Origin: Gemmatimonadota bacterium
Lineage (GTDB): Bacteria; Gemmatimonadota; Gemmatimonadetes; Longimicrobiales; Gaopeijiaceae
Direction of reading: 5' to 3'
Assembly: GCA_029262115.1 (NCBI GenBank)
Contig: JAJCZZ010000082.1
Location: 124,001-188,000, forward strand
Length of the DNA: 64,000 bases
This document shows positions 7,126 through 39,239 of the stretch, in pieces. The notes under the pieces were generated by a model that searched no databases, was not told where the DNA came from, and worked only from the letters and a program-made list of their open reading frames with translations. Every line of letters begins with the position of its first letter. The stretch's first letter is position 1. A program made the translations under genes and the position numbers.

Positions 7126-9819
7126 TCAAGAGCCCCTGAGTACGCGGTTCGGCGCAATGCGGGCGGCTCGGCGGGCCGGCAAGTAACTCGCGAGGAAACC
7201 GATACCGAGGAAGACCAGGGTCACGGCGGCATAGGTGGCGGGGTCGCGGGGGTTCACCCCCGGCAGGAAGGAGCCCAGGGCAGGGGCGGCCAACGCGGAG
7301 ACCACGACTCCGACTCCCGTGCCGATCGCTACCAACCAGAGCCCCTTCCGAAGCACCACCTGCAGGAGGTCCCCACCCGTGCCTCCGAGCGCGAGTCGGA
7401 CGCCGAGTTCGTGGCTGTCGCGTGACACGGTGAACTGTACCAACCCGTAAAGTCCGACCGCCGCCAGGACGAGTGCGGCGATGCCCATTGTGCCTACCAG
7501 GATCGCGCCGATGCGCTGCGGAAAGAGTGAGTCGGTCAGGATCTGACGGGCGGTCATGGTTTCGGCGGACGGGTGCCCCGGCAGATTGGCCGCCACGATG
7601 TCGCGAATGGCGGCCTCGTGAGCGGCGGGGTCGGCGGCCGCGAATGTCACGAACGCTCTGGCGGGAGGCACCCCCGCCGTCGAGAGATAGACGAGTGGAT
7701 CAGGGGTGACGTCCTGCACGATGTAGCGCGCGTCCTCGGCCACGCCGACGACCCGGATGTCGTCCTCGCCGATTCGGAAGGACCGCCCGATTGCGTTCCC
7801 CTCGGGCCAGTAGCGCCGAACGAATGCGTGACTCACGACGGCGACCGGTGGCCCCTCCTGCTCGTCCGCGTCGGTGAAGTCTCGACCTTCCCGGAGGCGC
7901 AGCCCCGCCGTTCCGAGGTAGCCGCCGCCCACACGCCGAACGTCCACGGCCAGCCGATCCTGGCCGGGGGGCGGCTGGACGCCCGCGATGTCCATCGGCC
8001 TCGGCGTTCGGACCCACCCGAGCACGGGTGCGTCGGCCACGGCCACGGAGGCCACGCCACGCTCCGCGCGCACCCTCGTGACGATGTCACGGATCCGTGA
8101 CGCCCGATCGGCTTCATCGAGCTGGGGGTCGGGCCTGAGCGTGAAGGAAGCCACGCGGTCGGGGTCGAAGCCGGGCCGTGTGGTCGCCCCGTCGAGCAGC
8201 GTCCTGACAAAGAGGCCGGTAGCCACCACGAGCACGACCGATACGGAGACCTGTCCGACGACAAGGGCCGTTCGCAGCCGTGACGACGGGCCGGCCCCTC
8301 CCCCGCGCGTGCGGAGCGCTCCGGCGGGGTCCTTTTTCAGGAGATGAAACGCTGGGGCGGCGCCTGCCAGCACTGAAGCCGCCAGCGCTGCGGTTACCGT
8401 CATGGCCAGGACCCGACCGTCCAGCGGGAGGGCGAGTGCCAATCCGCCCGATACGGCGCTGAGAAGGGACTCGCCGAGATAGGTGTTGATCCGCACGGCC
8501 GCGATCACGCCGAGGGTCGCCCCGAGGGCAACGAGGAGTACCGCTTCCGTCACGAGTTGGCGAACGAGACGGGTGTTGCCCGCGCCCATGGCCAGTCGGA
8601 CGGCCATCTCTTGCTCCCTCGACATGGCCCGCACGAGCAGGACGCTGCCGACGTTCAGGCAGGCGATGAGCAGCACCATGCCCGCGACCGCGATCAGGAT
8701 GGCCGCGAAAGCCATGACTCCGGCATGAAGACTGTGATCCAGACCGGTCGTCGGTGTGATGCCGACGCCGTGGCCTTCGTTCTCGGCGTACGTCTGCTCC
8801 AGTCGACGGGCTACCGCGCCGAACTGCTCCCGCGCCTCGCCGACCGATGCACCTTGCGCGAGCCGACCGATCATCTCGAAGACCTTGCTGCCCCGATCGT
8901 TCGGGTCGAAGCCGGGGATGAATCGGTCTGCCGATGTCAGCGGCATCCAGAGGTCCGATGCGAAGCCGATGAAGTGACCCCTGAAGCCCTCCGGCCCCAC
9001 CCCGACCACGGTGGCCGGATCACCTCCGACCTGGATCGCGCGCCCGACGATTCCGGCGTCCTGGCCGAACGCGTCGGTCCACAACCTGTGGCTGAGCACG
9101 ACCAGCGGTTCGTCCCCGAAGCGGCCCTCCTGCGGGAAAGCCATTCGGCCGAGCGTCGCGCGCAGCCCGAGCAGCGGGAAGTACTCCGGCGAGACGAGTT
9201 GGGCGATGGCGGTGGGGCCTCCCTCCTCGGAGCCGAGGGTGGTCTGGAGGCCGGTGAACGCAGCAATTTCCTGGACCGCGTCGACGGATCCCTTGTAGTC
9301 GAGGAAGTCCTGGTAGGAGAAGCCGGAGAAGCTGTTGCCCCCGGCCACGTCGGCCCACACGTCGACGAGCGACTCGGGATCGTCGACCGGCAAGGGACGA
9401 AGCAGCAACTCGTTGACGGCGGAGAAGACGACCGTGTTCGCTCCGATTCCCAGTGCGAGGACGAAGATGGACGTGAGGGCCAGGACGGGATTCTTGCGAA
9501 GTGCCCGCGCCGAAAACCGGAGGTCGGTCAGGAAATCGGACGCGATCGACGGGTCGGGATCGAATCGGGATGCCGAGGCCGGCACCTTGGAGGCCGCCAG
9601 TAGCGGGGCGGCCATCTCCGGCTCGCCAAACCGGTCGAGGAGTTCTCGGGGTGATCGTCCGGCGGCAAGACCGTCGGAGAAGTGTGCCTCCAGATCCCGC
9701 CGGACCGCTCTGGCCGCACGACCCCGGACTCCTGCCTGCCGGATTACGTCGTCGACGGCCTGCCGCAACTCTTCGGGAAGGTCGCGGTCGCGTGGGTCGC
9801 CCTCAGGAATGTCGCTCAC
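7126..9819 (-). CDS. ADOP-type permease 1 (MacB/FtsX-like, no ATPase)
   Basis: 897 residues. The GTG start overlaps the TGA of the upstream PadR gene (GTGA). The first 80 residues are a charged cytoplasmic domain unlike MacB, containing a helical RRDLEAHFSDGLAAG segment. Then comes the first permease repeat, with ARALRKNP, TM1, LGIGANTVVFS, a large periplasmic domain and TM2-4, and then a second repeat with TM5-8. Both repeats keep the E-x-x-V-R-x-A-x-G cytoplasmic motif (EMAVRLAMGA, ELGVRLALGG). MacB-family permeases transmit ATP-driven motion to the periplasm, but no ATPase or membrane-fusion gene is near, so this is an orphan (ADOP) permease of unknown substrate. Co-transcribed with PadR 1. 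Confidence 0.85.
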   Translation of the reverse strand: MSDIPEGDPRDRDLPEELRQAVDDVIRQAGVRGRAARAVRRDLEAHFSDGLAAGRSPRELLDRFGEPEMAAPLLAASKVPASASRFDPDPSIASDFLTDLRFSARALRKNPVLALTSIFVLALGIGANTVVFSAVNELLLRPLPVDDPESLVDVWADVAGGNSFSGFSYQDFLDYKGSVDAVQEIAAFTGLQTTLGSEEGGPTAIAQLVSPEYFPLLGLRATLGRMAFPQEGRFGDEPLVVLSHRLWTDAFGQDAGIVGRAIQVGGDPATVVGVGPEGFRGHFIGFASDLWMPLTSADRFIPGFDPNDRGSKVFEMIGRLAQGASVGEAREQFGAVARRLEQTYAENEGHGVGITPTTGLDHSLHAGVMAFAAILIAVAGMVLLIACLNVGSVLLVRAMSREQEMAVRLAMGAGNTRLVRQLVTEAVLLVALGATLGVIAAVRINTYLGESLLSAVSGGLALALPLDGRVLAMTVTAALAASVLAGAAPAFHLLKKDPAGALRTRGGGAGPSSRLRTALVVGQVSVSVVLVVATGLFVRTLLDGATTRPGFDPDRVASFTLRPDPQLDEADRASRIRDIVTRVRAERGVASVAVADAPVLGWVRTPRPMDIAGVQPPPGQDRLAVDVRRVGGGYLGTAGLRLREGRDFTDADEQEGPPVAVVSHAFVRRYWPEGNAIGRSFRIGEDDIRVVGVAEDARYIVQDVTPDPLVYLSTAGVPPARAFVTFAAADPAAHEAAIRDIVAANLPGHPSAETMTARQILTDSLFPQRIGAILVGTMGIAALVLAAVGLYGLVQFTVSRDSHELGVRLALGGTGGDLLQVVLRKGLWLVAIGTGVGVVVSALAAPALGSFLPGVNPRDPATYAAVTLVFLGIGFLASYLPARRAARIAPNRVLRGS

Positions 9820-10166: not shown

Positions 10167-10175
10167 TGGACATCA

Positions 10176-10201
10176 TGTGTTACCATATATTAGGTGTCAC
10201 A
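10176..10201 (-). promoter_or_regulatory. Putative operator of PadR 1
   Basis: AT-rich 26-bp imperfect palindrome (18 of 26 positions symmetric). Outer arms TGTG and CACA and inner ACC and GGT flank an ATATATTA-like core. It sits 9 bases upstream of the TTG start of PadR 1 and contains the stop codon of the SRPBCC gene. It is the only AT-rich stretch in this neighbourhood. Function is inferred from position and symmetry. Confidence 0.5.
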
Positions 10202-10736
10202 TAATATCGTTGCAATCGACCGCCCGTGCCAGGGCGGCCAACTCGGCCTCCGCCTGCCGCGCGAATGGACCAATGAGAAAGCGGGCCAGGATCACTCCTT
10301 TTCGACTGAACTCGCCCACCAGGCAGGAGACGCTGACGTGGCTACCGTCGTCATTCGGCGTGGCGCGCCACTCGAACCTCAGGCGGCCCGACCTGGCTGT
10401 GCCCTTGGTTCCGTCCACTTCGAAGACGAAGGCGGCCGGGTCCGAGGACGTCACGACCGTCACGTGCTCCGTCTCGGCGAGACCGAAGACGTCTCTCTCC
10501 TCCTGCCAGCCGTCACCAGGCGACGCCGCGCCGGGCGGAGCGCCTGATATGCTGAGCACGCCCGGACACCATTGCGGCCGTTCCATGGCCATGGCCAGAA
10601 AGGACAGGACGCCCTCGGGCGTGCACTTCACGCCGCGGGATACGGTGAACAGTTCCGCCATTTCGGTGCGGTTCTCCATGGCCCTTCCCAGCCTTTCGTC
10701 GTCGAGGTGCGTCCAAGCGCGGCGGAGCCAGGACAT
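10197..10736 (-). CDS. SRPBCC (polyketide cyclase/START-like) domain protein
   Basis: About 179 residues from the ATG at 10736 (MSWLRRAW); an earlier TTG (10760) and a later ATG (10676, MENRTEM) are possible. The segment VSRGVKCTPEGVLSFLAMAM, GDGWQEERDVFG and a run of beta strands ending in a long C-terminal helix match the helix-grip fold of SRPBCC proteins, which bind hydrophobic ligands. The exact ligand is unknown. It lies upstream of PadR 1 and ADOP 1 on the same strand, separated by a palindrome, so it could be read through into them. Supply of a lipid-like ligand to that module would be speculation. Confidence 0.65.
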   Translation of the reverse strand: MSWLRRAWTHLDDERLGRAMENRTEMAELFTVSRGVKCTPEGVLSFLAMAMERPQWCPGVLSISGAPPGAASPGDGWQEERDVFGLAETEHVTVVTSSDPAAFVFEVDGTKGTARSGRLRFEWRATPNDDGSHVSVSCLVGEFSRKGVILARFLIGPFARQAEAELAALARAVDCNDIM

Positions 10737-12404: not shown

Positions 12405-15065
12405 CTACTCGGCTGACAGCGCCCGGACCGGATCGACTCGTGAGGCCTTCCGCGCCGGGAGCCAGAGTCCGAGCAGGGAAACGACCGACAGCGCACCGAT
12501 GACCAGGGCGAACGTGGCCGGATCTGTCGGGCTCACGCCCACGAGAATGCTCGACAGGGCTCCGCCCATCGCGAACGCGGCCACCAGCCCGATGCCGAGT
12601 CCCAGCAGCGCTCGATAGGCTCCCTGCCGCACGACCATCCGAACGACGTCTCCTCCCTCCGCCCCCATGGCCAGCCGGACACCGATCTCGGCGGTGCGCT
12701 GCTGGGCCGAGTAGGCGGTCACTCCGTAGATGCCGACGGCTCCGAGAACCAGCGACATCAGTGCGAAGGTGCCCATCAGGTAGCCGATGACGGCGAAGCC
12801 GCCGACCCGCCGCTCGATCAACTCCGGCATCGTCTCGATCGAGTAGAGGGGAAGTTTGGGGTCCACTGACCAGACGGCCCGCTCCACACCCTCGATCACG
12901 TCCCGGGGCGGGCCTGCCGTGCGGATGACCAGGGAGCGCGTGCGTACGCCGCGCGCGTCGATATGGCCGTAGATCGACGGTTCAGGCGCGTCGTCGAGGC
13001 CGCGCTCCGTGATGTTGCGCAGGACGCCGACGATGGCGATGTCGGGGTCCCCGTCTTCCCCGACGATATACGCTCGTAGCGGGTCGGTCCCACTGGCAAT
13101 GTACTGTGACACGAACGCTTCGTTCACGACGGTGACCAGGCCACCCTCGACGGCATCCGCCGCCGTCAGCGCGCGTCCCGCGACGATCTCGGTGCGCAAA
13201 GCTTCGAAGTAGCCTGGCGTGACCCAGGTGCTCCGAACGCGCTGAGGGGCGCTGGGCTGCCCGTCGGGTCCGGCGACACGGACCGAATTCCCCCAGTTGG
13301 ATCCCATGAGGGGATGACTCTGGGTGGTGCCGACGGCCTCGACGCCCGACGACTGGAGGACGCGGTCCTCTACGGCGCTCCAGAACGCGGAGACCTCTTC
13401 TCCCGCGGCGTAGTCGCTGCTCGGCGGTGACACCCGCACCGTCAATACGTTTTCGGGTTCGAAGCCGAAGTCCTGACTACGCATTCCGGCCATGCTCTTC
13501 ATCAGCAGTCCACCGCCGATCAGCAGGACTACGGCCAGAGCCGTCTGGATCACCACCAGCGTGCTTCCGAACCGGCTGGCCCTTCGACCCCTGCCGCCGC
13601 GACCGCCGTCACGCAACTCGAGCATGGGGACGGAGGAGGACTGGAGGGCGGGCGCCAGGCCGAAGACGATGGCCGACACGGCTGTGATCCCGAGCGAATA
13701 GGCGATGACCGTCCCGTCCATGCCGAACTGGAACACGGGTGGGAGCGTGGACGGCAGGGCCGCCACGATGGCCCGGTAGCCCCACTGCGCGAGCAGGACT
13801 CCCAGTCCGCCGCCGAGGACCGCGAGGACCAGACTTTCCGTCAGCAACTGACGAAGGACCCGCGCACGCCCGGCACCCAGCGCCGCTCGCACGGCGAATT
13901 CCCGACTACGGGATCCAGCCCGAGCCAGGAGGAGGTTGGCCACGTTCACACATGCCATGAGCAGGATGAAGCTCACCGCGGTGAGCAGTACGAGGGAGGC
14001 CGCCCTGGCGACGTCTCCCAGGAAGTCCTCGTGGGCGGACACGACCCTGGTCGTCCAACCCGCGTTCGAGTCGGGGTACTCCTCCGCGAGTTGGCGAGCC
14101 ACGGCGGCCAGCTCCTCGCGAGCCTGCGAGAGCGTGGCTCCGTCGGCCAGGCGGGCGATCACGTTCGTGTTGTGATTGCTGCGATTGGCCGTGCTGGGGT
14201 GCGATCCCCAGGGCATGAAGAGGTCGGGCGCCTCGTCCAGAAAGAGGAAGTCGGGCGGCATGATGCCCACCACGGTCTTCTGGATGTTGTCCAGCACGAG
14301 TGTCGACCCCAGCACCTCCGGATCGCCACCGAAGCGGCGTTGCCAGAAGCCGTCGGTCAGAATCACGACCCCGTCGCGCCCCTCCCCCATTTCGTCCTCC
14401 GCAAAGTCGCGGCCCAGGACTGGTGCCTTGCCGAGGAGTCGGAGGATGTTGGGGGAGGTACGGATACCCGTAACCAACTCCGGAGCCCCGTCTCCGGTCA
14501 GATTGAAGTTGTCCTCGTTGAAGATCGCGAGGTCATCCAGGCTCCGCGCGCGTTCCCGCCAGTCCCACGCGTCCGCGGCGTTGACGTCCGTGTTCTCCCA
14601 CCCGAGCTCGTGGTTCTCTGACCAGACCACGAGGAGTTCTTCCGGGCTCTCGTAGGGGAGCGGCCTCATCAGAAAGCCGTTGACGACCGTGAATACCGAC
14701 GCGTTCGCGCCGATGCCCAGAGCCAGGGTCGCGACGGCCGTGATCGCGAAGATCGGCCGGCGCAGCAGCGAGCGAATTGCGTAGCGGATGTCCGACAGCA
14801 CCGTACCCATGATCTCCCATCCTCCCATTGTGGTCGTGTCGACACCCGCTCCTCGGAGCCTCAGCGCCGTACCTGTTCGGAGGGCATCCCATGTGGCGCC
14901 CATCCAGCGGGCGACCGTCCCCAGCCGCCCTCGTGTCCCCTGGTCCCACTCCAGGAGTGCGATGAAGGACTCTTCCATCTCGGCCGCGTACCGCTCTCGA
15001 TGCTCTCGCGGGTAGAGGCGTAGGAGCCGCCGGAACCAGCGACGCTCTACGTTCCGTAGAGTCAC
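12405..15065 (-). CDS. ADOP-type permease 2
   Basis: 886 residues from a GTG (V-T-L-R-N-V-E). The open frame continues upstream to 15209, but that would overlap the PadR gene by 80 bases. The N-terminal domain is of the RLYPREHRERYAAEMEESF class, about 90 residues, then TM1 with LGIGANASVFTVVNGFLMRP, a long periplasmic domain and seven more membrane segments. The paired cytoplasmic motifs EFAVRAALGAG and EIGVRLAMGAE and the ending ARKASRVDPVRALSAE are typical. No ATPase is nearby. Substrate and energy source are unknown; relatives of the MacB fold extrude or transduce across the envelope. It follows PadR 2 by 64 bases. Confidence 0.85.
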   Translation of the reverse strand: MTLRNVERRWFRRLLRLYPREHRERYAAEMEESFIALLEWDQGTRGRLGTVARWMGATWDALRTGTALRLRGAGVDTTTMGGWEIMGTVLSDIRYAIRSLLRRPIFAITAVATLALGIGANASVFTVVNGFLMRPLPYESPEELLVVWSENHELGWENTDVNAADAWDWRERARSLDDLAIFNEDNFNLTGDGAPELVTGIRTSPNILRLLGKAPVLGRDFAEDEMGEGRDGVVILTDGFWQRRFGGDPEVLGSTLVLDNIQKTVVGIMPPDFLFLDEAPDLFMPWGSHPSTANRSNHNTNVIARLADGATLSQAREELAAVARQLAEEYPDSNAGWTTRVVSAHEDFLGDVARAASLVLLTAVSFILLMACVNVANLLLARAGSRSREFAVRAALGAGRARVLRQLLTESLVLAVLGGGLGVLLAQWGYRAIVAALPSTLPPVFQFGMDGTVIAYSLGITAVSAIVFGLAPALQSSSVPMLELRDGGRGGRGRRASRFGSTLVVIQTALAVVLLIGGGLLMKSMAGMRSQDFGFEPENVLTVRVSPPSSDYAAGEEVSAFWSAVEDRVLQSSGVEAVGTTQSHPLMGSNWGNSVRVAGPDGQPSAPQRVRSTWVTPGYFEALRTEIVAGRALTAADAVEGGLVTVVNEAFVSQYIASGTDPLRAYIVGEDGDPDIAIVGVLRNITERGLDDAPEPSIYGHIDARGVRTRSLVIRTAGPPRDVIEGVERAVWSVDPKLPLYSIETMPELIERRVGGFAVIGYLMGTFALMSLVLGAVGIYGVTAYSAQQRTAEIGVRLAMGAEGGDVVRMVVRQGAYRALLGLGIGLVAAFAMGGALSSILVGVSPTDPATFALVIGALSVVSLLGLWLPARKASRVDPVRALSAE

Positions 15066-15129
15066 GAGCGTCGGACCCAGGCGTTGGCGGGTCCCCGAGC
15101 GGTGGCGCCTCGAACGGTGAGGGCCGACA

Positions 15130-15477
15130 TCACGCGTGCGTCCCGTCGGTCCCGACGCGCTTTTCTCGAGCGATCCGGACGAGCGCGGCCAGCCTCTCCA
15201 CCTCCTCATGGAGTACCAAGCGGCCTTCCGGCGTCAGCGCGTAGAACTTGCGCGTGCCCCCTTCGAGCGGAGCACCGTCAGGGGCTTCCACCTCGGAGAT
15301 CCACCCGGCGCGCGCGAGGTCCTTGAGCGACCCGTAGAGCTTTCCCGGCCAGAGGCGGAGCCCTCCGTCCGTCCGGTCCAGCACCTCCTCCATGATGGCT
15401 GTGCCGTGGAGCGTCTGGTCCGCCAGGCTCAACAAGATGTGGAACCAGTGGCCCTTCAATCGTCGGTTCGCTGCCAT
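15130..15477 (-). CDS. PadR-family regulator 2, paired with ADOP 2
   Basis: 115 residues; ATG preceded by GAGGG at good spacing. The helix HWFHILLSLADQTLHGTAIM, GGLRLWPGKLYGSLKDL and the wing TRKFYALTPEGRLVLHEEV identify a PadR winged helix of the 'FHILLSL' class, with a short C terminus. It precedes ADOP 2 on the same strand. A perfect 9-bp-arm palindrome lies 70 bases upstream in the region shared with the divergent Asp-box protein gene, so the regulator may control both directions. Expected role is repressor; the inducer is unknown. Confidence 0.9.
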   Translation of the reverse strand: MAANRRLKGHWFHILLSLADQTLHGTAIMEEVLDRTDGGLRLWPGKLYGSLKDLARAGWISEVEAPDGAPLEGGTRKFYALTPEGRLVLHEEVERLAALVRIAREKRVGTDGTHA

Positions 15478-15546: not shown

Positions 15547-15570
15547 TATCTATACGGAAATGTATAGATA
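15547..15570. promoter_or_regulatory. Palindromic operator between PadR 2 and the Asp-box gene
   Basis: Perfect inverted repeat TATCTATAC - 6 bases - GTATAGATA in otherwise GC-rich DNA. It lies upstream of padR 2 (minus) and 138 bases before the Asp-box gene (plus). The spacing and AT content fit a PadR-type operator overlapping a promoter. It shares no core sequence with the palindromes of the other five modules. Confidence 0.7.
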
Positions 15571-15707
15571 AGAGATTCAACGTCGTTCGGCCACCTGGGT
15601 GTCTGGATGGTTGACCCGTACGGTGCTCGACGAGCATTGTGATCGGTTCCGGGCCCCGCGGTCGCAGGCGTCGGAGGCCCGTTCGACCATCCCGAAGGAA
15701 CGCATCG

Positions 15708-18700
15708 ATGCGCAACAGACTCCCGTGGCTTCCCGTCCTTCTCTTCCTCGGCGTCGGCACCGGCACGGCCGCCCCCGCCTCGGTCGCCGCCCAGAGCGGT
15801 CCGACCGCGGATCTCTCCGAGGTATTTGGTGATCTCAGCTACCGGAACGTGGGGCCGTCGCGTGGTGGGCGGGTCACGGCCGTCGCGGGCCATCGATCGC
15901 ACCCCTACACCTTCTATATGGGGGCGACCGGGGGCGGCGTGTGGAAGACGGAAGACTATGGGACCACGTGGTTCCCGATCTCGGACGGGTTCTTCCAGAC
16001 CGGTTCGATCGGCTCGATCCGAGTGGCTCCTTCCAACCCCGACATCGTCTACGTCGGAACGGGCTCCGACGGCATCCGCAGCAACGTCATCCTGGGTAAG
16101 GGGATGTACCGCTCGGACGATGCCGGCCGTACGTGGCGGCTGACGGGAATGGAGAACGCCGGTCAGATCGGCGCAGTTGAGATCCACCCGACCAACGCCG
16201 ATGTGGCCTACGCGGCCGCGCTCGGGAATCCGTGGGCTCCGAGCGAGGAGCGCGGGATCTATCGGACACGGGACGGCGGACGCTCCTGGGACCAGGTGCT
16301 GTTCACCTCGGACTCGGTCGGCGGTATCGACGTCGAGATCCATCCGACGAATCCGAACGTGATCTACGCCGCGATGTGGCGGGTGGAGCGGAAGCCGTGG
16401 ACGATCATTTCCGGGATGGAGGCCGCAGGAGAGGAAGACGGCATCTGGAAGTCGACGGACGGCGGCGACAGTTGGCGGATCGTCACGCGCGGCCTCCCCT
16501 CTGGGCTCATCGGGAAGATCGATCTAGCCGTAACGCCCGACGACCCTGACCGCGTCTACGCCGTGGTCGAGACCACGGATCCGGACGAGGGCTTGTACCG
16601 GTCCGACGACAGCGGTGAGAGTTGGCGGCTGGTCAGCAACCAGCGCGGCATCATGAACCGTCCGTTCTACTACACGAACGTCGATGCGGACCCCTCGGAC
16701 GCGGACAAGGTCTTCATCAACAACGAGGGCTTCTACGTTTCGACCGACGCCGGAGCCTCGTTCGAGCGGCAGTCCACCCCACACGGAGACAATCACGACA
16801 TCTGGATCAACCCGGACGATCCGGACATCTGGGTGCAGTCGAACGACGGCGGCGCCAATGTGACGTTGGACGGCGGACGGACGTGGTCGACGCAGCACAA
16901 TCAGCCCACGGCCGAGCTGTACTCGCTGGACATCGACGACCGCCACCCCTACTGGCTGTATGCCGGCCAGCAGGACAACACGACCATCATGGTGCCGTCG
17001 AACCCGCCGGAGGATGGATCACCGGGCGGGCACACGGCCCTGTGGCGGGACGTCGGCGGCTGCGAGACCGGACCCGCGGTGCCGAAGCCGGGCGATCCCA
17101 CCATCGTCTACAGCAACTGCAAGGGCCGCTTCGGGCGGTACAGCCACCTGACCGGCCAGGAGAAGCAGTACTACGTCGGCTTCCAGAACCTCTACGGGGT
17201 CAACCCGGCCGAGTTGAATTACCGGTTCCAGCGGGTGGTTCCGATCGAGGTGTCTCCCCACGATCCCAACGTCGTGTATCACGGCTCCCAGTTCGTCCAC
17301 AAGACGACGGACGAGGGCGTAACGTGGGAGACGCTGAGCCCCGACCTGACCGCCTTCCGCCCCGAGCGCCAGATGGTTTCCGGGGGACCGATCACCCGCG
17401 ATATCACCGGTGAGGAGCACTACTCGGTGCTCTACGCGATCGAGGAATCGCCGGTGGAGCCCGGGGTCATCTGGACGGGAGCCAACGACGGACCGGTCCA
17501 CGTGACCCGAGACGGTGGACGGAGCTGGACGGACGTGACGCCGCCCGATATGCCGGCCGAAGGACGGGTGCAGACCATCGACCCATCACCCCATCAGGCG
17601 GGTAAGGCGTACTTCGCGGCCTACCGGACGCTGCTCGGCGACTTCCAGCCGCTGATCTACCGGACGGAAGATTATGGACAGACGTGGACGCGGCTGACCA
17701 CCGGCAGCAACGGCATTCCGGCCGACTATCCCACTCGGGTCGTTCGCGAAGATCCGGAACGGGAAGGCCTGCTCTACGCGGGTACAGAGTACGGGATGTT
17801 CGTCTCGTTCGACGACGGGGCGACTTGGCGGCCGTTCCAGTTCAACCTGCCGGTCACGCCGATCACGGACATCAAGGTGAAGGACGACGACCTGGTCATG
17901 TCGACCATGGGCCGGGCGTTCTGGATCATGGACGACCTCACGCCCGTGCGCGCCTGGACGGAGATGGTGGCCGCGGCGGATGTGCATCTGTTCCAGCCTG
18001 CCGATGCGATTCGTGAGCAGCGCGGCGGCTTCTTCGGCTTCGGCGGTGCCGCTCCGGATCAGCCGCAGTGGTCTCCCGCCGGGGTTACCCTCGACTACTA
18101 CCTTCCCTCGAACGCCAGTTCGGTTCAACTGGAGATTCGCGGATCGGATGGGGTCGTCCGTTCCTACTCGGCCGAGGGTCCCGGAACGCGGACGGAGCAG
18201 GCGCAGGAGATGCGCGCGCCGTTCCAGCGCCAGACGGGCGCCCCGACGCTCGACGCGAGCGAGGGCGTCCATCGCTTCGTGTGGGATCTCACGGTGCCTG
18301 GGCCCGGAGGGGCCGCCCGTGGTGGGCCCATGGTCGTTCCGGGCGTTTACGAAGCTCGGCTGACGGTCGACGGTGCGACGCGCTCCAGAAACTTCCAGGT
18401 CGTGATGGACCCGCGGGTGGCTGCCGATGGTGTGACGGTGGCTGACCTTCGAGAACAGTTCGAGCTCGCCATGCAGATCCAGCAAGCCATGGAGGACGCG
18501 ACCGGCACGATCGACCGCGTCGAACAAGCCATGGAGCGCGCCGCGGACGGTTCGGCGGTGGACCGCGACCTCGAGGAGATCCTGGACGCCCTCGTGACGG
18601 ATCGGGAGATCTCGAGCTATCCGCAGCCGATGCTGGCCGATCAGCTTCGCTACCTGTACGGCAACACCACCCGGGCGGATCAGAAGCCAGGGCGCGACAT

Positions 18701-18782
18701 GTACACACGGCTGGAGGATCTTCGGACGGAACTGCGCATGCATCAGGAGCGGTTGCAGCGGTTGCTGCGCACGATTACGTAG
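15708..18782 (+). CDS. Secreted Asp-box (BNR/VPS10-sortilin-like) beta-propeller protein
   Basis: 1024 residues, starting at an ATG with AAGGA upstream and a signal peptide (MRNRLPWLPVLLFLGVGTG, ending SVAAQ). The body contains about eleven Asp-box turns of the S/T-x-D-x-G-x-x-W type (KTEDYGTTW, RSDDAGRTW, RTRDGGRSW, KSTDGGDSW, RSDDSGESW, VTRDGGRSW, RTEDYGQTW and others). This indicates two or more seven- to ten-bladed propellers as in sialidase/VPS10 proteins. A C-terminal helical tail (about 900-1024) follows. Such proteins are abundant in Gemmatimonadota and Acidobacteria; they are often annotated as glycosyl hydrolases, but no catalytic residues can be assigned here. Probably periplasmic or surface-exposed, with unknown substrate. 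Confidence 0.85.
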   Translation: MRNRLPWLPVLLFLGVGTGTAAPASVAAQSGPTADLSEVFGDLSYRNVGPSRGGRVTAVAGHRSHPYTFYMGATGGGVWKTEDYGTTWFPISDGFFQTGSIGSIRVAPSNPDIVYVGTGSDGIRSNVILGKGMYRSDDAGRTWRLTGMENAGQIGAVEIHPTNADVAYAAALGNPWAPSEERGIYRTRDGGRSWDQVLFTSDSVGGIDVEIHPTNPNVIYAAMWRVERKPWTIISGMEAAGEEDGIWKSTDGGDSWRIVTRGLPSGLIGKIDLAVTPDDPDRVYAVVETTDPDEGLYRSDDSGESWRLVSNQRGIMNRPFYYTNVDADPSDADKVFINNEGFYVSTDAGASFERQSTPHGDNHDIWINPDDPDIWVQSNDGGANVTLDGGRTWSTQHNQPTAELYSLDIDDRHPYWLYAGQQDNTTIMVPSNPPEDGSPGGHTALWRDVGGCETGPAVPKPGDPTIVYSNCKGRFGRYSHLTGQEKQYYVGFQNLYGVNPAELNYRFQRVVPIEVSPHDPNVVYHGSQFVHKTTDEGVTWETLSPDLTAFRPERQMVSGGPITRDITGEEHYSVLYAIEESPVEPGVIWTGANDGPVHVTRDGGRSWTDVTPPDMPAEGRVQTIDPSPHQAGKAYFAAYRTLLGDFQPLIYRTEDYGQTWTRLTTGSNGIPADYPTRVVREDPEREGLLYAGTEYGMFVSFDDGATWRPFQFNLPVTPITDIKVKDDDLVMSTMGRAFWIMDDLTPVRAWTEMVAAADVHLFQPADAIREQRGGFFGFGGAAPDQPQWSPAGVTLDYYLPSNASSVQLEIRGSDGVVRSYSAEGPGTRTEQAQEMRAPFQRQTGAPTLDASEGVHRFVWDLTVPGPGGAARGGPMVVPGVYEARLTVDGATRSRNFQVVMDPRVAADGVTVADLREQFELAMQIQQAMEDATGTIDRVEQAMERAADGSAVDRDLEEILDALVTDREISSYPQPMLADQLRYLYGNTTRADQKPGRDMYTRLEDLRTELRMHQERLQRLLRTIT

Positions 18783-19391: not shown

Positions 19392-19415
19392 GTATTGTAC
19401 TCAACGATACAATAC
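19392..19415 (+). promoter_or_regulatory. Palindromic operator of PadR 3
   Basis: Perfect inverted repeat GTATTGTA - 8 bases - TACAATAC, 60 bases before the PadR 3 ATG. An AT-rich patch in GC-rich DNA between the DinB stop and PadR 3. Its position and symmetry suggest autoregulation of the padR-ADOP 3 operon. Confidence 0.7.
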
Positions 19416-19811: not shown

Positions 19812-19815
19812 CGAC

Positions 19816-25690: not shown

Positions 25691-25694
25691 CCGG

Positions 25695-26075: not shown

Positions 26076-26098
26076 ATTAGTATCACAATGATACTAAT
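26076..26098 (-). promoter_or_regulatory. Perfect palindromic operator of PadR 4
   Basis: ATTAGTATCA - CAA - TGATACTAAT: 10-bp arms without mismatch and a 3-bp centre. A related half site (TGTCATAATGATATTA region, 26065-26080) touches it on the gene side, giving a possible second, overlapping site. It is immediately upstream of padR 4 and is the most symmetric of the operators in this window. Confidence 0.75.
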
Positions 26099-31617: not shown

Positions 31618-34335
31618 CTACTCCGCCTGGAGTGCCTCCCTCGGATCCACCCGCGTGACACGCCATGCTGGAACGGAACCGGCCGCGAGGGCGACGACGA
31701 AGAGGGTGGCCGTGACGGCCGCGAAGACCGACGGGTCGCGTGGTGAGACGCCGTAGAGCAAGGGCTGCACGAATCGGCCGGCGGCGAGAGCGGCCAGCAC
31801 CCCGATGCCGAGGCCCAATGTGACCAGGCCGAGAGAGCGCCGCAGCACGGTCCCGACCAGTCGCGACGACTCCGCGCCCAGGGCGGAGCGGATCCCGAGT
31901 TCCGTACGCCGGAGGGCGATATCGAAGGCGAGTACGCTGTAGAGGCCGAGTCCGGCCACGACGAGGGCCAGCACGCCGAAGATGGAGAACATCGAGGCGC
32001 CGAGTTTCCACGACCGCATCTGTGGCTCGATGTTGTCCATGAGTGGCTGTACGATCGGGAACCGAATCGACGACGATGTCGCGGCGGCTTCTCGCCGTAT
32101 GTCATCGAGCGCCTCCGCGATGGGTCCGACCGTGCGAACCATCAAGGCCCCGGCCGGTCCCTTCGCCGCTGGATGGCTCCAGTTCACGAAATATTGGAGG
32201 TGAGGATCGTCCTCTCGCAGTTCCTGGCGCCGGAAGTTCTCCGTGACGCCGACGACAGTGGTGCAGGGTGGCTCCTCGTCCTCGTCGCCGAACAGGAGGC
32301 ATTGGCCCAACGCGGGACCGTCCGGCCAGATGGCGTCGGCCATGCTCTCCGTCAGGACGGCGACCGGGGGGGCGCGCTCGGACTGATCGGACGCTTCGAT
32401 GCCGCGACCGCGCAGGACATCAATGCTCATGGTCGCGAAATACTCTGGACTCACTTTATTGACGTAGGGGCCTCCCGCCGGGTGAGGCGGGAGGGAGTCG
32501 ACGCCCGGAATCCGGGGGCGCCCGATGCCGATACTCGACCAGAAGGGAATCGTGTAGCTCAGGGCCGCGTTCGAGACGCCGGGGAGGCGAGCCAGCCTCA
32601 CCCGTACGTCCTCATGGATCTGGTGCTGAGCATCGAGATCCAATTTGTCGGCGAAGTCCAGCCGCACTACGGCGACGTTCGTCGCGTCGAAGCCGAGATC
32701 CGTCGTTTCCGCCGCGCGCAGGCTCGTGACGAACAGACCCGCGCCAATGAGCAGAACGACCGAGAGCGCGGCCTGGGCCACGAGGAGGACGGTCCGCGTG
32801 CGGCTCGCACCCGTCGTGATGCTACGCCCGCCGGCGCGCAGTTCGTGCGCCACTTCACCCTTCGTGGCCTGGAGCGCGGGCAGGAAGCCCGCGAGAAGCG
32901 CGGTCATGACCGTCGCCACCGTCAGGAAAGCGGCAAGGCGACCCGTGATGCCATCGTCGATGAAGGCGACGTTCGGAAGAAGCACCGTATGCACCAGGCT
33001 TCCGCCCCACCGAGCGACGAGCAAGGCGCCGAGCGCTCCGAGACCGGCCAGGACGAGACTCTCCGTCAGCAACTGGCCGAGAAGTCGCCCTCGAGTCACG
33101 CCGAGAGCCATGCGGACAGCGAGCTCCCGGCGCCAGCGGGCCGCGCGCGCCAGCAGGAGGTTGGCCACGTTGAAGCACGCGATCATCAAGACGATGGCGG
33201 ACACCCCCGCCAACCAACGAGCGACCCGTGCCTCGTCGGAAGGATTCGGGCCTCGAGCCGCGATGATCGGTGCCGCGATGACCCGGGCGTTCTCGTCGTA
33301 TCGGTCCTGCTCGATCAACTCGGCCCGGCCCCCCCGGTGCGCGGCGGTGGCCATGTCCTCGGCTACTTCCGTGGTGGTGCCGTCCTCGATTCGCACGGCC
33401 GCACGAAGCCACCACCAGTTGCGATGGTCGATCCACCCGGTTCCGCCGGTGGCGGCTTCCTGTGCCGGCACGATGGGGAGCCAGAGGTCGACGGGCGTGA
33501 GCTCCGCCCCGGTAAAGCCGCGCGGTGCAACGCCGACCACCTGCGCCCGGATGCCGGCGATCTCTACGGTCAGGGCGGCCAGGTCGGCATCCGTGCCGAA
33601 CCGTCGCTCCCAGAACTCGTGGGAGAGCACTGCCGTGAGCGCAGCTCCGACCTGATCCTCCTCTTCGTTGAAGAAGCGGCCCGCGACCGGGACGACGCCG
33701 AGCAGGGGAAAGAGGGATGCCGACGCGCTGATGACCCTGACCCGCTCGGCGTCCGCGCCCGTGCCCATGGTGCGCTCGGACATGCTTGTGTACGCTGCGA
33801 CCGAACTGAAGCCGGGGACCGTGGTGAGGTCGGTGAAGTCAGGGTATGCCAGGGTGCGCGACGTATTCACACTGCGGTCGAAGCCACGTCGCTCGACGTA
33901 GATGTGACGCACCGCATCTGCGTCCTGCACGTACTGCGGTGGACTCAACAGCAATCGATCGATGACGCCGAACATGACGGCGTTCGCTCCGATGCCCAGC
34001 GACAGAATCAGGATGACCGCCGCCGCAAAGCCCGGAGCGCGTCGGAGCCCTCGGAAGGCGAATCGAATGTTCCTCACCATCACATCCACCATCTGCCCCT
34101 CCCCATGTCGTCTGGCCACCCCATCGATTGCCCTGAGGGCCCGCTGGTACGCCTCACGGTTTCCGAACCGTCGGTGCGCTTCCCGCCGCGCGTCCCCCTC
34201 TGTCATACCCAGCGTACGGAGTGCTTCCACCGTGCTCTCGATGTGAAAGCGAAGCTCTTCGTCGAGTTCTCTCGCGCCTTGCCCCGTCAGGGAAGCCAGT
34301 CGAAAGAACCGGCGGATGCCACGCGGTAGTCGCAT
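31618..34335 (-). CDS. ADOP-type permease 5
   Basis: 905 residues; the ATG is three bases after the PadR 5 stop. The N terminus (LTGQGARELDEELRFHIEST, EALRTLGMTEGDARREAHRR) belongs to a different class from ADOP 2-4: a DEELxFHIE helical domain. A linker (MVDVMVRNIRFAFRGLRRAP) leads to TM1, LGIGANAVMFGVIDRLLLSP, the periplasmic domain and TM2-8. Cytoplasmic motifs are ELAVRMALGVT and ELGIRSALGAE, and the end is TRVDPREALQAE. No ATPase is nearby. The kinase fusion gene lies 16 bases downstream and may be read on the same message. Confidence 0.85.
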   Translation of the reverse strand: MRLPRGIRRFFRLASLTGQGARELDEELRFHIESTVEALRTLGMTEGDARREAHRRFGNREAYQRALRAIDGVARRHGEGQMVDVMVRNIRFAFRGLRRAPGFAAAVILILSLGIGANAVMFGVIDRLLLSPPQYVQDADAVRHIYVERRGFDRSVNTSRTLAYPDFTDLTTVPGFSSVAAYTSMSERTMGTGADAERVRVISASASLFPLLGVVPVAGRFFNEEEDQVGAALTAVLSHEFWERRFGTDADLAALTVEIAGIRAQVVGVAPRGFTGAELTPVDLWLPIVPAQEAATGGTGWIDHRNWWWLRAAVRIEDGTTTEVAEDMATAAHRGGRAELIEQDRYDENARVIAAPIIAARGPNPSDEARVARWLAGVSAIVLMIACFNVANLLLARAARWRRELAVRMALGVTRGRLLGQLLTESLVLAGLGALGALLVARWGGSLVHTVLLPNVAFIDDGITGRLAAFLTVATVMTALLAGFLPALQATKGEVAHELRAGGRSITTGASRTRTVLLVAQAALSVVLLIGAGLFVTSLRAAETTDLGFDATNVAVVRLDFADKLDLDAQHQIHEDVRVRLARLPGVSNAALSYTIPFWSSIGIGRPRIPGVDSLPPHPAGGPYVNKVSPEYFATMSIDVLRGRGIEASDQSERAPPVAVLTESMADAIWPDGPALGQCLLFGDEDEEPPCTTVVGVTENFRRQELREDDPHLQYFVNWSHPAAKGPAGALMVRTVGPIAEALDDIRREAAATSSSIRFPIVQPLMDNIEPQMRSWKLGASMFSIFGVLALVVAGLGLYSVLAFDIALRRTELGIRSALGAESSRLVGTVLRRSLGLVTLGLGIGVLAALAAGRFVQPLLYGVSPRDPSVFAAVTATLFVVALAAGSVPAWRVTRVDPREALQAE

Positions 34336-34338
34336 CAG

Positions 34339-34674
34339 TCAACGCCCCGCAGCCAGGACCTTGGCCATGGCGCCCGAATACCGCGTCCACTCCGCGGCGG
34401 CTTCTGACAAGGCCTGCCGTCCGGCGTCGCTCAACGCGTAGTACTTGGCGCGTCTATTGTTCTCGGAAACACCCCACGTGGCGCTCAGCCAACCGCGCTT
34501 CGCCATGCGGTGGAGCGAGGTGTAGAGCGCGCCGTCCTCAATCTCCAGGCTGCCGTCGCTGGTGCGCCGGATCCATTCGGCCACCGCGTACCCGTGTCGC
34601 GGCTCGGCCGCAAGCGCCTTGAGCACCAGAACGTCCAACGTTCCCTGCAGCAGATTCATGTGCTTGGGAGACAT
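34339..34674 (-). CDS. PadR-family regulator 5, paired with ADOP 5
   Basis: 111 residues from ATG 34674 (MSPKHMNLLQGTLDVLVLKA); a longer frame to 34725 would cover an operator-like palindrome. It is of the LLQGTLDVLVLK class (with PadR 6), with RHGYAVAEWI, IEDGALYTSLHRMAKRGWL and wing RAKYYALSDAGRQAL. Members of this class commonly repress neighbouring transport genes. Two CCTGAA-type palindromes lie 10 and 78 bases upstream; the nearer overlaps the probable ribosome binding site. Confidence 0.9.
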   Translation of the reverse strand: MSPKHMNLLQGTLDVLVLKALAAEPRHGYAVAEWIRRTSDGSLEIEDGALYTSLHRMAKRGWLSATWGVSENNRRAKYYALSDAGRQALSEAAAEWTRYSGAMAKVLAAGR

Positions 34675-34683
34675 CTGGCCCAC

Positions 34684-34698
34684 CCTGAAATGTTGAGG
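34684..34698 (-). promoter_or_regulatory. Putative PadR 5 operator, proximal site
   Basis: CCTGAA - ATG - TTGAGG, a 15-bp palindrome with one mismatch, sited 10 bases before the PadR 5 ATG. It has the same design as the perfect site 68 bases further upstream. Confidence 0.55.
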
Positions 34699-34751
34699 GG
34701 AGCGTTGCCAGTGAAGCCCCGACATCCGTCAGATGCCGGGGCTCACGTTCC

Positions 34752-34766
34752 CCTGAAACGTTCAGG
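34752..34766 (-). promoter_or_regulatory. Putative PadR 5 operator, distal site
   Basis: CCTGAA - ACG - TTCAGG, perfect 6-bp arms with a 3-bp centre. It lies between the IHGV-repeat gene stop and padR 5, and its spacing from the proximal site (68 bp centre to centre) would allow cooperative binding. Distinct in sequence from the other PadR palindromes here. Confidence 0.6.
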
Positions 34767-34792
34767 CAAGCTACATCGCTACGGAATCGCTG

Positions 34793-36043: not shown

Positions 36044-36176
36044 ATCGCCTCACCCATCGCGTCTATCCAAAGAAACTGCGGATCGATTGGTCGCTCCAAC
36101 CGACACCCCTTGGATGACCGCGACAGGGCGAATTGTTTGGACCGGGGGTCTTCCATCCGCCACATTCCAACCCGAA

Positions 36177-36210
36177 CATACCCCTTGTAGTCTTATGGGT
36201 ATGACCCTTA
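36177..36210 (+). promoter_or_regulatory. Putative PadR 6 operator region
   Basis: Three linked half sites. CATACCC (36177-36183) and GGGTATG (36197-36203) form perfect 7-bp arms with a 13-bp spacer. GGGT-ATG-ACCC (36197-36207) forms a tighter palindrome, extended to 36194-36210 with one mismatched pair. It lies 37 bases before the PadR 6 ATG and within the region shared with the divergent IHGV gene, so it could control both. Confidence 0.55.
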
Positions 36211-36246
36211 TGGTTAGCGTCCGAGCGAACCATGGAGGAGCGACAG

Positions 36247-36588
36247 ATGGCGAAGGAATCGTTGGAACTGCTGAAGGGCACGCTCGACGTGTTGATCCTG
36301 AAAACGCTCAGTCGAGGGGCGTTGCACGGCTACGGGGTGTCTCGCTGGCTTGAGGAGGCCACCGATGAGGCCTTCCAGGTCGACGAAGGAGCGCTGTATC
36401 CGGCGCTACGACGACTCGAGAAGAAGGGGATGGTGGAGGCGGAATGGGGCAGAACGGACACGGGACGCGAGGCCAAGTTCTACCGCCTGACCGCGGACGG
36501 GGAGGCCGAACTGGCCCGAAGTCTGAGCACGTGGAGTCGGTACGTCGAGGCCATGGGACGCGTGCTCGGGAGTCCGGCCACGGGATGA
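36247..36588 (+). CDS. PadR-family regulator 6, paired with ADOP 6
   Basis: 113 residues from ATG 36247, chosen because GGAGG lies about 9 bases upstream; an ATG at 36232 is also in frame. LELLKGTLDVLILKTLSRGA, HGYGVSRWLEEAT, VDEGALYPALRRLEKKGMVE and wing GREAKFYRLTADGEAELA show the same class as PadR 5. Its TGA overlaps the ATG of ADOP 6 (ATGA). Expected repressor of its own operon through the GGGT/ACCC half sites upstream. Confidence 0.92.
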   Translation: MAKESLELLKGTLDVLILKTLSRGALHGYGVSRWLEEATDEAFQVDEGALYPALRRLEKKGMVEAEWGRTDTGREAKFYRLTADGEAELARSLSTWSRYVEAMGRVLGSPATG

Positions 36589-39239
36589 AGCGCGAGGGGC
36601 GCACGCCCAGCGGGCGGGTGGTGGGCGGTGCGGCGGACGAAGACGTCGTCCGCGAACTCCGGTCGCACGTGACTCTTCGAGAGGACGCGTTGGTCGGGGC
36701 CGGCTGGGACCGGGCGGAGGCCCGGGCGGAGGCGGAGCGGAGCCTCGGAGACCTGGAGGCGGTGGCACGTGAATGCACGGAGATCGCAAAAAGTCATCAA
36801 CGGGCGGTGAGGAGGTCGAGGATGTTCGAGACGATGGGGCAGGATATCCGGTACGGTGTACGTTCACTCCTGGCGAGCCCAGGCTTCACGGTGGTTGCGC
36901 TGATAACCTTGGCATTGGGGATCGGAGCCAATACCGCCATCTTCTCCGTGGTCAACGGGGTCCTGCTGCGCCCGCTCCCGTACCCCGATCCGGACGAGCT
37001 CTACTGGATCGACGAGGTCGCCCAGAGTGGGCGCTCCATGACCGTCGCGTGGCCCAACTTCGAGGACTGGCAGCGAGAGTCCGACGGCTTCCGTGCGCTG
37101 ACCGCGTACAGCCCGCGGACGGCCACGATCCTGGGCGGGGCAGAGCCGGTCCAGGTGCCGTCCGCCAACGTGAGTGAGCAGTTCTGGCAGGTCTTCGGCG
37201 TGCAAGCGACTCAGGGGCGGCTCACCCTTCCCGAGGACCACGTTCCGGACGTCGCCCCCGTTGCCGTCGTGAGCGACTTCGTGGCGGAGGAGGTGCTGGG
37301 GGGTGGCTCCGCGATCGGGCGGAGTATCGACATCTCCGGGCGGGGCTACGAGATCGTGGGCGTGGTCGACCGCTCCTTCGACTTCCCCGCGGGCGCCCAG
37401 GTGTGGGTCACGGCCGAGACGGGCGACCCGGGGAGCCGCACCGCCCACAACTACAGGGTCGTCGGCCGCATCGGCCCGGGCTCCACCCCGCAGGCCGTCG
37501 AGCAGCAGCTCGACGCGTTCCAGGAACGCATTGCCGCAGGAGCGTCGGCGAGCGACCTGGCGTATCTCGCAACCGGGGTGAACGTCGTCCCGCTGCGGGA
37601 AGAACTGGTCGGGGACGCCCGCACGCCCCTGCTCATTCTCCTCGGTGCAGCCGGCTTCGTCCTGCTGGTTGCCTGCACCAATCTGGCGAGCACGCTCCTC
37701 GCTCGGGGCACGGTCCGGGCGCGCGAGCTTGCCGTCCGCTCCGCACTGGGTGGCACGAAGAGTCGACTCGTGCGCCAGCTTCTCACGGAGAGCCTCGTGT
37801 TGGCGACGGTGGGGGCGGCGGCCGGCGTTGCGCTGGCCGCACTGATTCTCCGTGTCCTACGCCGCCTGGGAGAGGGCGCGATTCCTCGCCTCGAGAACGT
37901 TTCGGTGGACGGGTGGGTGCTCCTCTTCGCGCTAGCGATCGCCGGGCTCACGGCGGTCGCGTTCGGGCTGCTTCCGGCACTCCGAGGCGCGGAAGGTGGC
38001 CAGGCTGATACACTGCGGGCGTCCGGCCGCGCAAACGCGGGACGGCGGGGCCGCACCTGGGACATCCTCGTTGTGGTCGAGGTGGCGTTGGCGCTGGTCC
38101 TCCTGGTCGGCTCGGGTTTGCTCATTCGTAGCTTCGCGACCCTCCTCAGCGAGGACGGCGGCTTCGATCCCTCAGACGTGGCCATGGCTACGGTGGCCCT
38201 GGGGACCACGCGGTACCCCGAGCTTGCCGACCACGTCCTATACTGGGACCGTCTCCTGGCTGAGGCTGAGCGCGTGCCTGGCGTGTCGTCGGTCGGTCTT
38301 CTGACCAACCTCCCCGTGACGTCAGTCCCGAACGGTCGGGTTGCGCTCAACGGGGACCCCAACGACTACGGCGACGCGCTCTACCTCGTGGCGAGCGAAG
38401 GCGCCTTCGGGGCGCTGGATATTCCGCTGATCCGGGGCCGGCTGTTCGACGAGCGAGACGGACCGGGGGCGCCGCATGCCGTGGTCGTCAGCGAGTCTTT
38501 CGCGAAGGAGTACTGGCCGGACGAGGATCCGATCGGGCGTCTGGTCAGCGGCGGCGGCATGGACAACTACTGGGAAGCGGATCCCGTGGTCTTCGGCACG
38601 GTCGTGGGGACGGTGGGCGAGGTCCGGTACAGTGAACTCGGCCGGCCGGGCGGCCCGACTGTCTACTGGAACTACCGCCAGCGCCCCTTCCGCACGCGCT
38701 TCGGTGCCACGCTCCTGGCCGAATCCGTGACCGGAGACCCTTCGCTCGTGGCGCAGCCGCTCCGCTCCATCGTTCGCCAGGCGGACGATCAGGTACCGGT
38801 CCAGATCCGATACATGAAGGACGTGGTCCTCGACTCCCTGGGTGACCGGACCTTCATGCTGTTCGTGCTCGGTGGCTTCGCGGCGCTGGCCCTGATCCTT
38901 GCGGCGGTGGGCATCTACGGCGTGGTCGCCTATTCGGTGGCGCAGCGGACCCGGGAAATGGGCGTCCGGCTGGCCCTCGGGGCGCAACCGGACTCCGTAC
39001 GCGGTCTCGTGCTGAAGGGCGCCCTCCGTCCCGTCGTGATCGGCCTGGTCCTCGGCGTGCTCGGCGGACGGCTGTTGTCCGGCGTCGTAGAGGGATTCCT
39101 CTACGAGGTCGAGCCTTCCGATCCGCTTACCTTCGTGGGTGTTTCCCTTCTGTTGCTCCTGGCGGCGCTCGTCGCGAGTTGGGTGCCGGCGTTCCGCGGT
39201 ACGCGGGTGGATCCGATCATCGCGATGCGCGCGGAGTAG
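36585..39239 (+). CDS. ADOP-type permease 6
   Basis: 884 residues from the ATG overlapping the PadR 6 stop. The N-terminal domain (DEDVVRELRSHVTLREDALV, WDRAEARAEAERSLGDLEAV) is of the ELRxH class shared with ADOP 5. Then MFETMGQDIRYGVRSLLASP, TM1, LGIGANTAIFSVVNGVLLRP, the periplasmic domain and TM2-8. Motifs ELAVRSALGGT and EMGVRLALGAQ; C terminus TRVDPIIAMRAE. No ATPase gene is adjacent. It converges with ettA, whose stop is 22 bases away. Confidence 0.87.
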   Translation: MKREGRTPSGRVVGGAADEDVVRELRSHVTLREDALVGAGWDRAEARAEAERSLGDLEAVARECTEIAKSHQRAVRRSRMFETMGQDIRYGVRSLLASPGFTVVALITLALGIGANTAIFSVVNGVLLRPLPYPDPDELYWIDEVAQSGRSMTVAWPNFEDWQRESDGFRALTAYSPRTATILGGAEPVQVPSANVSEQFWQVFGVQATQGRLTLPEDHVPDVAPVAVVSDFVAEEVLGGGSAIGRSIDISGRGYEIVGVVDRSFDFPAGAQVWVTAETGDPGSRTAHNYRVVGRIGPGSTPQAVEQQLDAFQERIAAGASASDLAYLATGVNVVPLREELVGDARTPLLILLGAAGFVLLVACTNLASTLLARGTVRARELAVRSALGGTKSRLVRQLLTESLVLATVGAAAGVALAALILRVLRRLGEGAIPRLENVSVDGWVLLFALAIAGLTAVAFGLLPALRGAEGGQADTLRASGRANAGRRGRTWDILVVVEVALALVLLVGSGLLIRSFATLLSEDGGFDPSDVAMATVALGTTRYPELADHVLYWDRLLAEAERVPGVSSVGLLTNLPVTSVPNGRVALNGDPNDYGDALYLVASEGAFGALDIPLIRGRLFDERDGPGAPHAVVVSESFAKEYWPDEDPIGRLVSGGGMDNYWEADPVVFGTVVGTVGEVRYSELGRPGGPTVYWNYRQRPFRTRFGATLLAESVTGDPSLVAQPLRSIVRQADDQVPVQIRYMKDVVLDSLGDRTFMLFVLGGFAALALILAAVGIYGVVAYSVAQRTREMGVRLALGAQPDSVRGLVLKGALRPVVIGLVLGVLGGRLLSGVVEGFLYEVEPSDPLTFVGVSLLLLLAALVASWVPAFRGTRVDPIIAMRAE

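Follow-up and report, generated by a model that had tools for sequence, protein, structure and literature searches.

A large set of PadR-ADOP gene pairs with mostly distinct candidate operators in a Gemmatimonadota genome

Known PadR systems and the proposed bank

PadR regulators and ADOP permeases are known protein families, and their pairing is known as well: genes of TIGR03433 (padR_acidobact, typed "paralog" in NCBIfam) and TIGR03434 occur side by side as large sets of paralogues in Acidobacteria, according to the family notes, and ADOPs typically have no adjacent gene for a cognate ABC ATPase. To our knowledge, operators are not part of either family definition, and the open-access literature, with subscription papers and preprints lying outside the search, yielded no account of the operators, the bank size, or operator diversification. 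Here we describe six PadR-ADOP modules in a 64,000-nucleotide (nt) stretch (referred to as "the window") of a Gemmatimonadota genome of the family Gaopeijiaceae (GCA_029262115.1, contig JAJCZZ010000082.1, positions 124,001 to 188,000), and compare them with PadR loci in the rest of this genome and in its relatives. We propose, with a probability of roughly three in four, that each PadR represses its own PadR-ADOP operon via its own operator, and that the six modules sample a bank of mostly separately addressed switches. As far as sequence can tell, the parts are ordinary, their number is extraordinary, and their addresses are mostly separate. Orthogonal repressor sets of the TetR type, assembled from many genomes for synthetic biology, likewise consist of related repressors with their own operators; the bank proposed here would be natural, contained in one genome, and placed before one type of gene.

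The closest characterized regulators are those of PadR subfamily 2 (Lactococcus LmrR, and Bacillus cereus bcPadR1 and 2), which are of the same size class as the PadRs described here. LmrR represses itself and the adjoining exporter genes (PMC5428041); it occupies its own and the exporter promoter and leaves upon drug binding (PMC4235314, PMC5428041). In small PadRs, the helix alpha3 (motif EGTLYPxLxRLE) and the wing are the DNA readers, and subfamily 2 has been suggested to share one operator, ATGT/ACAT with a spacer of 8-10 nt (PMC3506622); Listeria PadRs are treated in PMC6624303. Unlike in the subfamily 2 motif, the alpha3 positions that vary most in the PadRs analyzed here include the P of LYP. 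The exact motif ATGT-N8..10-ACAT, with degenerate forms uncounted, was found in only 2 of the 133 PadR upstream regions of this genome, which do not fall into the subfamily 2 operator class, and the bank questions the suggestion that small PadRs share one operator (PMC3506622). Residue-to-site correlation (MerR, Prot-DNA-Korr, PMC5045206) and operator prediction (Snowprint, PMC10858194) follow the same regulator-to-site logic across relatives, whereas the bulk of the variety described here is found within a single genome.

In the mechanism that we propose, a PadR of about 110-130 residues with a winged helix would bind as a dimer to a palindrome at its own promoter, and the bound protein would repress both padR (autoregulation) and the ADOP gene behind it until some signal releases it. 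Paralogues would tend to keep a common operator geometry, usually with the axis on a base pair and a length of about 20 bp, and to differ in the letters, which would change together with the DNA-recognition helix alpha3; cross-talk between the modules would be lacking. Since LmrR occupies its own and the exporter promoter, by analogy each PadR most likely represses its own padR-ADOP operon.

Number of PadR-ADOP pairs and the six window modules

The source genome (5.45 Mb, 95.66% complete) contains 133 PadR genes, counted at E <= 0.001 with PF03551, and 120 of these have an ADOP gene next downstream on the same strand, as called with a profile derived from the ADOPs of the six window modules (the genome has 199 ADOP candidates, 67 of which were scored). 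Among the 13 PadRs without an ADOP directly downstream, five have one at another place in the stretch fetched, which for the remaining eight contains no ADOP; at four of the 13 loci, an ADOP reading frame lies upstream instead, on the same strand. The first-pass annotation had described a bank of six modules; all six are real, yet they stand among 133 PadRs and are thus a sample, so that the scale had been understated. A second genome, from another genus of the same family (G098), gave 107 PF03551 matches, and 98 of the 109 PadR domains in its fetched DNA have an ADOP downstream. So do 113 of 131 relative loci; these form a non-random sample, selected for their resemblance to the six window PadRs. 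In a first look at 154 genomes of the order, PadR candidates ranged from 0 to 138 per genome, with the source genome highest, followed by counts of 114, 111, 94, 84, 80, and 80, and several related genera have about ten each. The jump from about ten to more than 100 candidates between genera of one family suggests a rapid lineage-specific expansion. Closely spaced divergent PadR gene pairs were also seen (L032, L033, L041, and L103, on contigs C44, C48, C61, and C101), and because of this spacing two modules may share one control region.

In the window (66.6% G+C), the modules, all on one contig, are named P1 to P6 in window order. The earlier description of six PadR genes directly before six ADOP permeases was borne out: the PF03551 gathering score was passed by all six PadRs (131 of 133 genome-wide), and the TIGR03434 cut-off (622.3 bits) by all six ADOPs, with about 800 of 803 positions aligned and each ADOP having two MacB_PCD and two FtsX stretches. 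The two protein families are those of TIGR03433 and TIGR03434, although only two of the six PadRs pass TIGR03433 itself: all six match it, but its cut-off of 101.8 bits was exceeded only by P5 (126.8 bits) and P6 (122.6 bits). P1 to P4 (40.0-78.4 bits) fall below it and are therefore called PadR (PF03551) and not members of TIGR03433. The P6 PadR also matches solved PadR structures, the best being 6abq, 6abt, and 3f8b, the last of which we take to be LmrR.

The coordinates of the modules are as follows, the ADOPs of all modules except P5 being given as their longest open reading frame (ORF), and the helix signature being the residues at profile columns 32, 33, 35, and 38. The P1 PadR (9816-10166, minus strand, 78.4 bits with TIGR03433, signature GHSP) is followed by an ADOP at 7126-9888 (minus strand, 722.8 bits with TIGR03434), whose true start is probably near the PadR stop. 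P2 consists of a PadR at 15130-15477 (signature WPKG) and an ADOP at 12405-15209 (867.7 bits), both on the minus strand, and P3 of a PadR at 19476-19811 (signature WPTG) and an ADOP at 19780-22470 (801.4 bits), both on the plus strand. In P4, also on the minus strand, the PadR (25695-26069, signature LPNR) precedes an ADOP at 23033-25756 (830.4 bits). The P5 PadR (34339-34725, signature EDAT) and ADOP (31618-34335, 670.9 bits) are on the minus strand as well, and those of P6 on the plus strand, with the PadR at 36232-36588 (signature DEAP) and the ADOP at 36444-39239 (807.9 bits); the likely start of the latter is the ATG at 36585, which overlaps the PadR stop. Such an overlap had been noted as usual, and indeed a possible ADOP start codon touches the PadR stop in 73 of the 120 junctions genome-wide.

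Candidate operators: geometry, conservation, and distinctness

Palindromes are in excess beside PadR genes. For each gene, the upstream 200 nt were scanned and compared with 20 dinucleotide-shuffled versions of themselves, using a weighted match score that is not in calibrated bits. Palindromes scoring at least 16 were found in 22 of the 133 PadR upstream regions vs. 2 of 263 control stretches, and 35 of the 133 contain a palindrome beyond all 20 shuffles, where about six would be expected by chance. Inverted repeats with an odd spacer, i.e., with the axis on a base pair, number 335 beside PadR against 183 expected (1.83-fold, z 9.7), and those with an even spacer 191 against 184; upstream of 84 other genes, the corresponding figures are 165 against 139 (1.18-fold, z 2.1) and 148 against 143 (1.04). 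The spacers of P2 and P3 are even, so the odd-spacer rule is not universal. The heptamer ACAATGT occurs in 13 of the 133 PadR upstream regions, with 1.8 expected. The earlier remark that the palindrome cores share no obvious motif thus holds in that the operators mostly differ between paralogues, and is too strong in view of their shared geometry and of recurring half-sites (ACAATGT, GATA/TATC, and CCC..GGG).

Within the window, the palindromes reported beside the regulators were recovered at, or within a few bases of, their original positions. The P1 operator region spans 10173-10207, and its best palindrome (ATATTAGGTGTCACATAATAT) is better centred at 10187-10207. The putative P2 operator at 15547-15570 reads TATCTATAC-N6-GTATAGATA, the P3 palindrome at 19392-19415 reads GTATTGTA-N8-TACAATAC, and the putative P4 operator at 26076-26098 has perfect arms (ATTAGTATCA-N3-TGATACTAAT). 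P5 has two candidate operator copies, copy 1 at 34751-34767 (CCCTGAAACGTTCAGGC on the plus strand) and copy 2 at 34683-34699 (CCCTGAAATGTTGAGGG on the plus strand); the real start of the P5 PadR is probably downstream of copy 2. The P6 candidate at 36178-36202 is ATACCC-N13-GGGTAT, with a second TTATGG just downstream. The top palindromes of P1, P2, P3, and P4 were equalled by none of the 20 shuffles. For P5 and P6, the top repeat in the shuffle scan is not the operator (in P5 it is a GC hairpin instead), and these two operators therefore rest on conservation.

Homologous loci in the genomes compared retain related sites for four of the modules. The motif types counted had been picked by eye in these very homologues, and the Fisher values for the counts are accordingly descriptive. 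The P1 type CATAnTATG is present exactly in 4 of 5 homologues with at least 60% PadR identity and in 11 of 15 with at least 50%, vs. 2 of 345 unrelated PadR loci. Allowing one mismatch, the P2 type TATAC-N6-GTATA was found in 4 of 6 homologues with at least 60% identity and in 0 of 294 unrelated loci, the P5 type CCTSAA-N3-TTSAGG in 8 of 10 and 0 of 277, and the P6 half-site CTTATGSGTA in 11 of 15 and 1 of 274, respectively. P4 has no homologue above 50% identity, and its core TATCA-N3-TGATA occurs in 3 of 57 homologues at 40-50% identity and in 0 of 313 below 40%. Several P3 homologues carry TGATAnTATCA-like sites in place of the P3 palindrome. The check suggested in the first-pass annotation, i.e., conservation of the palindrome in orthologues together with a difference between paralogues, accordingly came out positive for P2, for P5, and, as a half-site motif, for P6, and for P1 among the homologues only, but not for P3.

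The window sites are distinct when compared letter by letter, least clearly those of P1, P3, the P5 core, and P6. A search of the whole genome covered the P4 palindrome (at most three mismatches) and the P5 motif (at most one mismatch): P4 was matched only at home and P5 only at its two home sites, and the backward controls gave no match in either case. Among the 133 PadR upstream regions, the best foreign match has 5 of 18 mismatches for P1 and for P2, 4 of 16 for P3, and 7 of 20 for P4. For P6 this match has 3 of 12, and for P5 3 of 15 with the whole motif or 2 of 12 with the core alone. The unique P4 and P5 sites, together with the gene pairing, agree with the earlier picture of one PadR and one ADOP per module under an operator of their own. 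The accompanying claim of distinct addresses needs qualification at P3, whose helix signature is common to two other PadRs, the nearest site and the P3-homologue type both being found at one of them (TGATAnTATCA is exact at that type's locus L012 and absent at P3's home), and at P1, whose homologue type fits another locus.

Operator divergence, the recognition helix, and alternative readings

Upstream similarity increases with PadR identity. In non-coding DNA, and with the 99th percentile of unrelated pairs only as the threshold, 134 of 2031 pairs with 50-55% PadR identity lay above it, compared with 52 of 61 pairs at 75-85%. The nearest paralogue inside the genome has a median identity of 52%, a level at which sharing is rare. 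The two genera have 68 reciprocal best PadR pairs, and 36 of these share an upstream segment above this threshold; on visual inspection, the shared segments include many palindromes with different letters and others that overlap coding DNA.

The similarity of alpha3 (columns 31-43) predicts operator similarity after adjustment for the rest of the protein, with z 3.7 and 3.8 in the source genome alone (at two redundancy levels), 3.3 in G098 alone, 4.6 in all loci outside the window genome, and 6.7 in the pooled set; at most 1 of 300 permutations (0-1) was as high. Alpha1 and alpha2 reach z 1.7 at most, and the wing and alpha4 are weak (<= z 1.7 in single genomes). At 166 loci with flanking DNA, the alpha3 effect was z 4.4 in the operator region, against -0.9 in a stretch 455-590 nt upstream and 0.0 within the following gene; helix or wing columns take 9, 1, and 2 of the top 12 places respectively. 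Six variable alpha3 positions were chosen after earlier results had been seen, and the whole-helix test is independent of that choice. The link between alpha3 and the operator beyond the rest of the protein is weak but reproducible in two genomes tested separately. Among the 133 PadRs, 99 distinct four-column signatures occur, and in the 68 independent orthologue pairs the four columns are all identical in 27 of the 36 pairs that share an upstream segment vs. 15 of the 32 that do not (p 0.025).

Of the single columns, column 38 (the residue following Leu-Tyr) came out strongest in the pooled tests, and it has 14 residue types in the genome. A single-residue code at this column was nevertheless rejected: top in the pooled set, the column ranks 3 in the control-region subset, 5 without the source genome, and 21 in the source genome alone. 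As the single-column result failed the hold-out and a partial correlation was not significant (see below), we claim the whole helix and not a residue, and a one-residue specificity code is a lead. Two further candidates were set aside. The notion that orthologues keep their operators where equally similar paralogues do not was strong only with coding DNA included and weak once it was removed, and k-mer enrichments by residue class were nominal, not clearly surviving correction for the number of k-mers.

A number of these results weigh against separately addressed switches. In the genome at large, 98 of the 133 upstream regions have no palindrome beyond all 20 shuffles, and in G098 and 129 relative loci odd spacers exceed even ones, but even spacers are raised too (five-base arms: 289 vs. 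217 and 338 vs. 225). At lower identity conservation falls off: with a threshold of 50%, the P2 type remains in 5 of 16 homologues, the P5 type in 11 of 43, and the P6 half-site in 11 of 44, and the P3 palindrome is kept in 0 of 12. The window's own P1 site resembles the CATAnTATG sites of the homologues only in degenerate form, with no exact copy at the locus, and the homologue consensus fits L044 as well as home (two mismatches each); at the P6 locus itself, the full palindrome of the P6 homologues does not rank with the best matches. For alpha3 the effect size is low (r about 0.04), the conserved Tyr37 within this helix went the opposite way (z -3.1), and in the 68 orthologue pairs the partial correlation, with the rest of the protein held constant, misses significance (r 0.14, p 0.24). 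Single columns picked without the source genome failed to predict within it, and disjoint closest pairs were uninformative for column 38, with too few discordant cases. Finally, the comparison of orthologues with paralogues gave a Fisher p of 0.14 and a rank-test p of 0.03 at a matched 60-70% identity, and p 0.010 at 60-90%, where the mean identities are unequal (0.65 vs. 0.69); the random threshold of this test still included some related pairs.

Among the other ways to read these data, the one to be taken most seriously, although we consider it unlikely, is cross-talk within subfamilies, in which the operators are real and PadRs with the same helix bind each other's sites, resulting in fewer, overlapping regulons. 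With 99 signatures for 133 PadRs, some are shared; that of P3 recurs twice in the genome and that of P5 once, and the WPATLYG helix of P3 is also that of the PadR whose site comes closest to the P3 site. Pairs with the same signature are also slightly higher in upstream similarity (52 pairs, permutation p 0.0125), the signature columns having been chosen on overlapping data. Yet 80 of the 133 signatures are singletons, and a genome-wide match away from home is lacking for the P4 operator within three mismatches and for the P5 operator within one.

Far less probable is that the palindromes are ordinary intergenic repeats or terminator or attenuator hairpins. The strongest inverted repeat of P5 is indeed a GC hairpin between the operator copies, which 4 of the 5 homologues folded also have, and the slight odd-dyad excess in other intergenic regions points the same way; the excess beside PadR is larger, however, and the conservation in homologues and the link to the recognition helix, with its clean controls, also speak against this reading. 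We give just as little credence to the idea that the palindromes are read by other regulators, either global or belonging to a divergent gene, with PadR acting elsewhere. A sortilin/BNR-repeat ORF diverges from the P2 padR, and another regulator could use the P2 operator in the intergenic region between them. A global regulator, though, would give one shared motif, whereas the P4 and P5 sites are unique, and operator similarity tracks PadR identity. We therefore retain the separately addressed PadR-ADOP switches as the preferred explanation.

Going one step further, we tentatively suggest, at somewhat less than even odds, that the bank is a natural, largely insulated set of over 100 repressors of one fold, each paired with an operator, in which duplicated modules have escaped cross-talk by changing a few helix positions (columns 30, 32, 33, 35, 38, and 41, the best lead being the residue that follows Leu-Tyr) and, along with them, the letters of a palindrome of fixed geometry, amounting to a readable PadR-DNA code. 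Studies of how duplicated transcription factors avoid one another's sites usually rely on a few paralogues. The 120 regulator-permease pairs in one genome and 98 in a related one, some with assignable operators, make a winged-helix recognition code and the rules of regulatory insulation directly testable, and the bank would also be a source of small repressor parts.

Some further features were observed around the modules. Among the scanned neighbour ORFs, which were part of the genes, the only ABC ATPase is at 39262-40944 on the opposite strand, with two ABC_tran domains and ABC_tran_Xtn, as in ABC-F proteins. The sortilin/BNR-repeat ORF divergent from the P2 padR (15639-18782, plus strand), with the P2 operator between the two, is possibly co-regulated. 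The GC hairpin between the two P5 operators (34716-34742, minus strand) folds at -27.9 kcal/mol vs. -15.2 for shuffles; a hairpin at this place folds in P5's own locus and in L227-L230, not in L239 (five of six folded). The leader hairpins of L227-L230 differ in sequence and lie in the same place, and some are then followed by a T-rich run, terminator- or attenuator-like. Among the P5/P6-like PadRs of relatives (L226-L255 and L273-L284), some have CCCCT..AGGGG-type sites whose inner triplets change, as judged by eye, and these look like a graded operator series.

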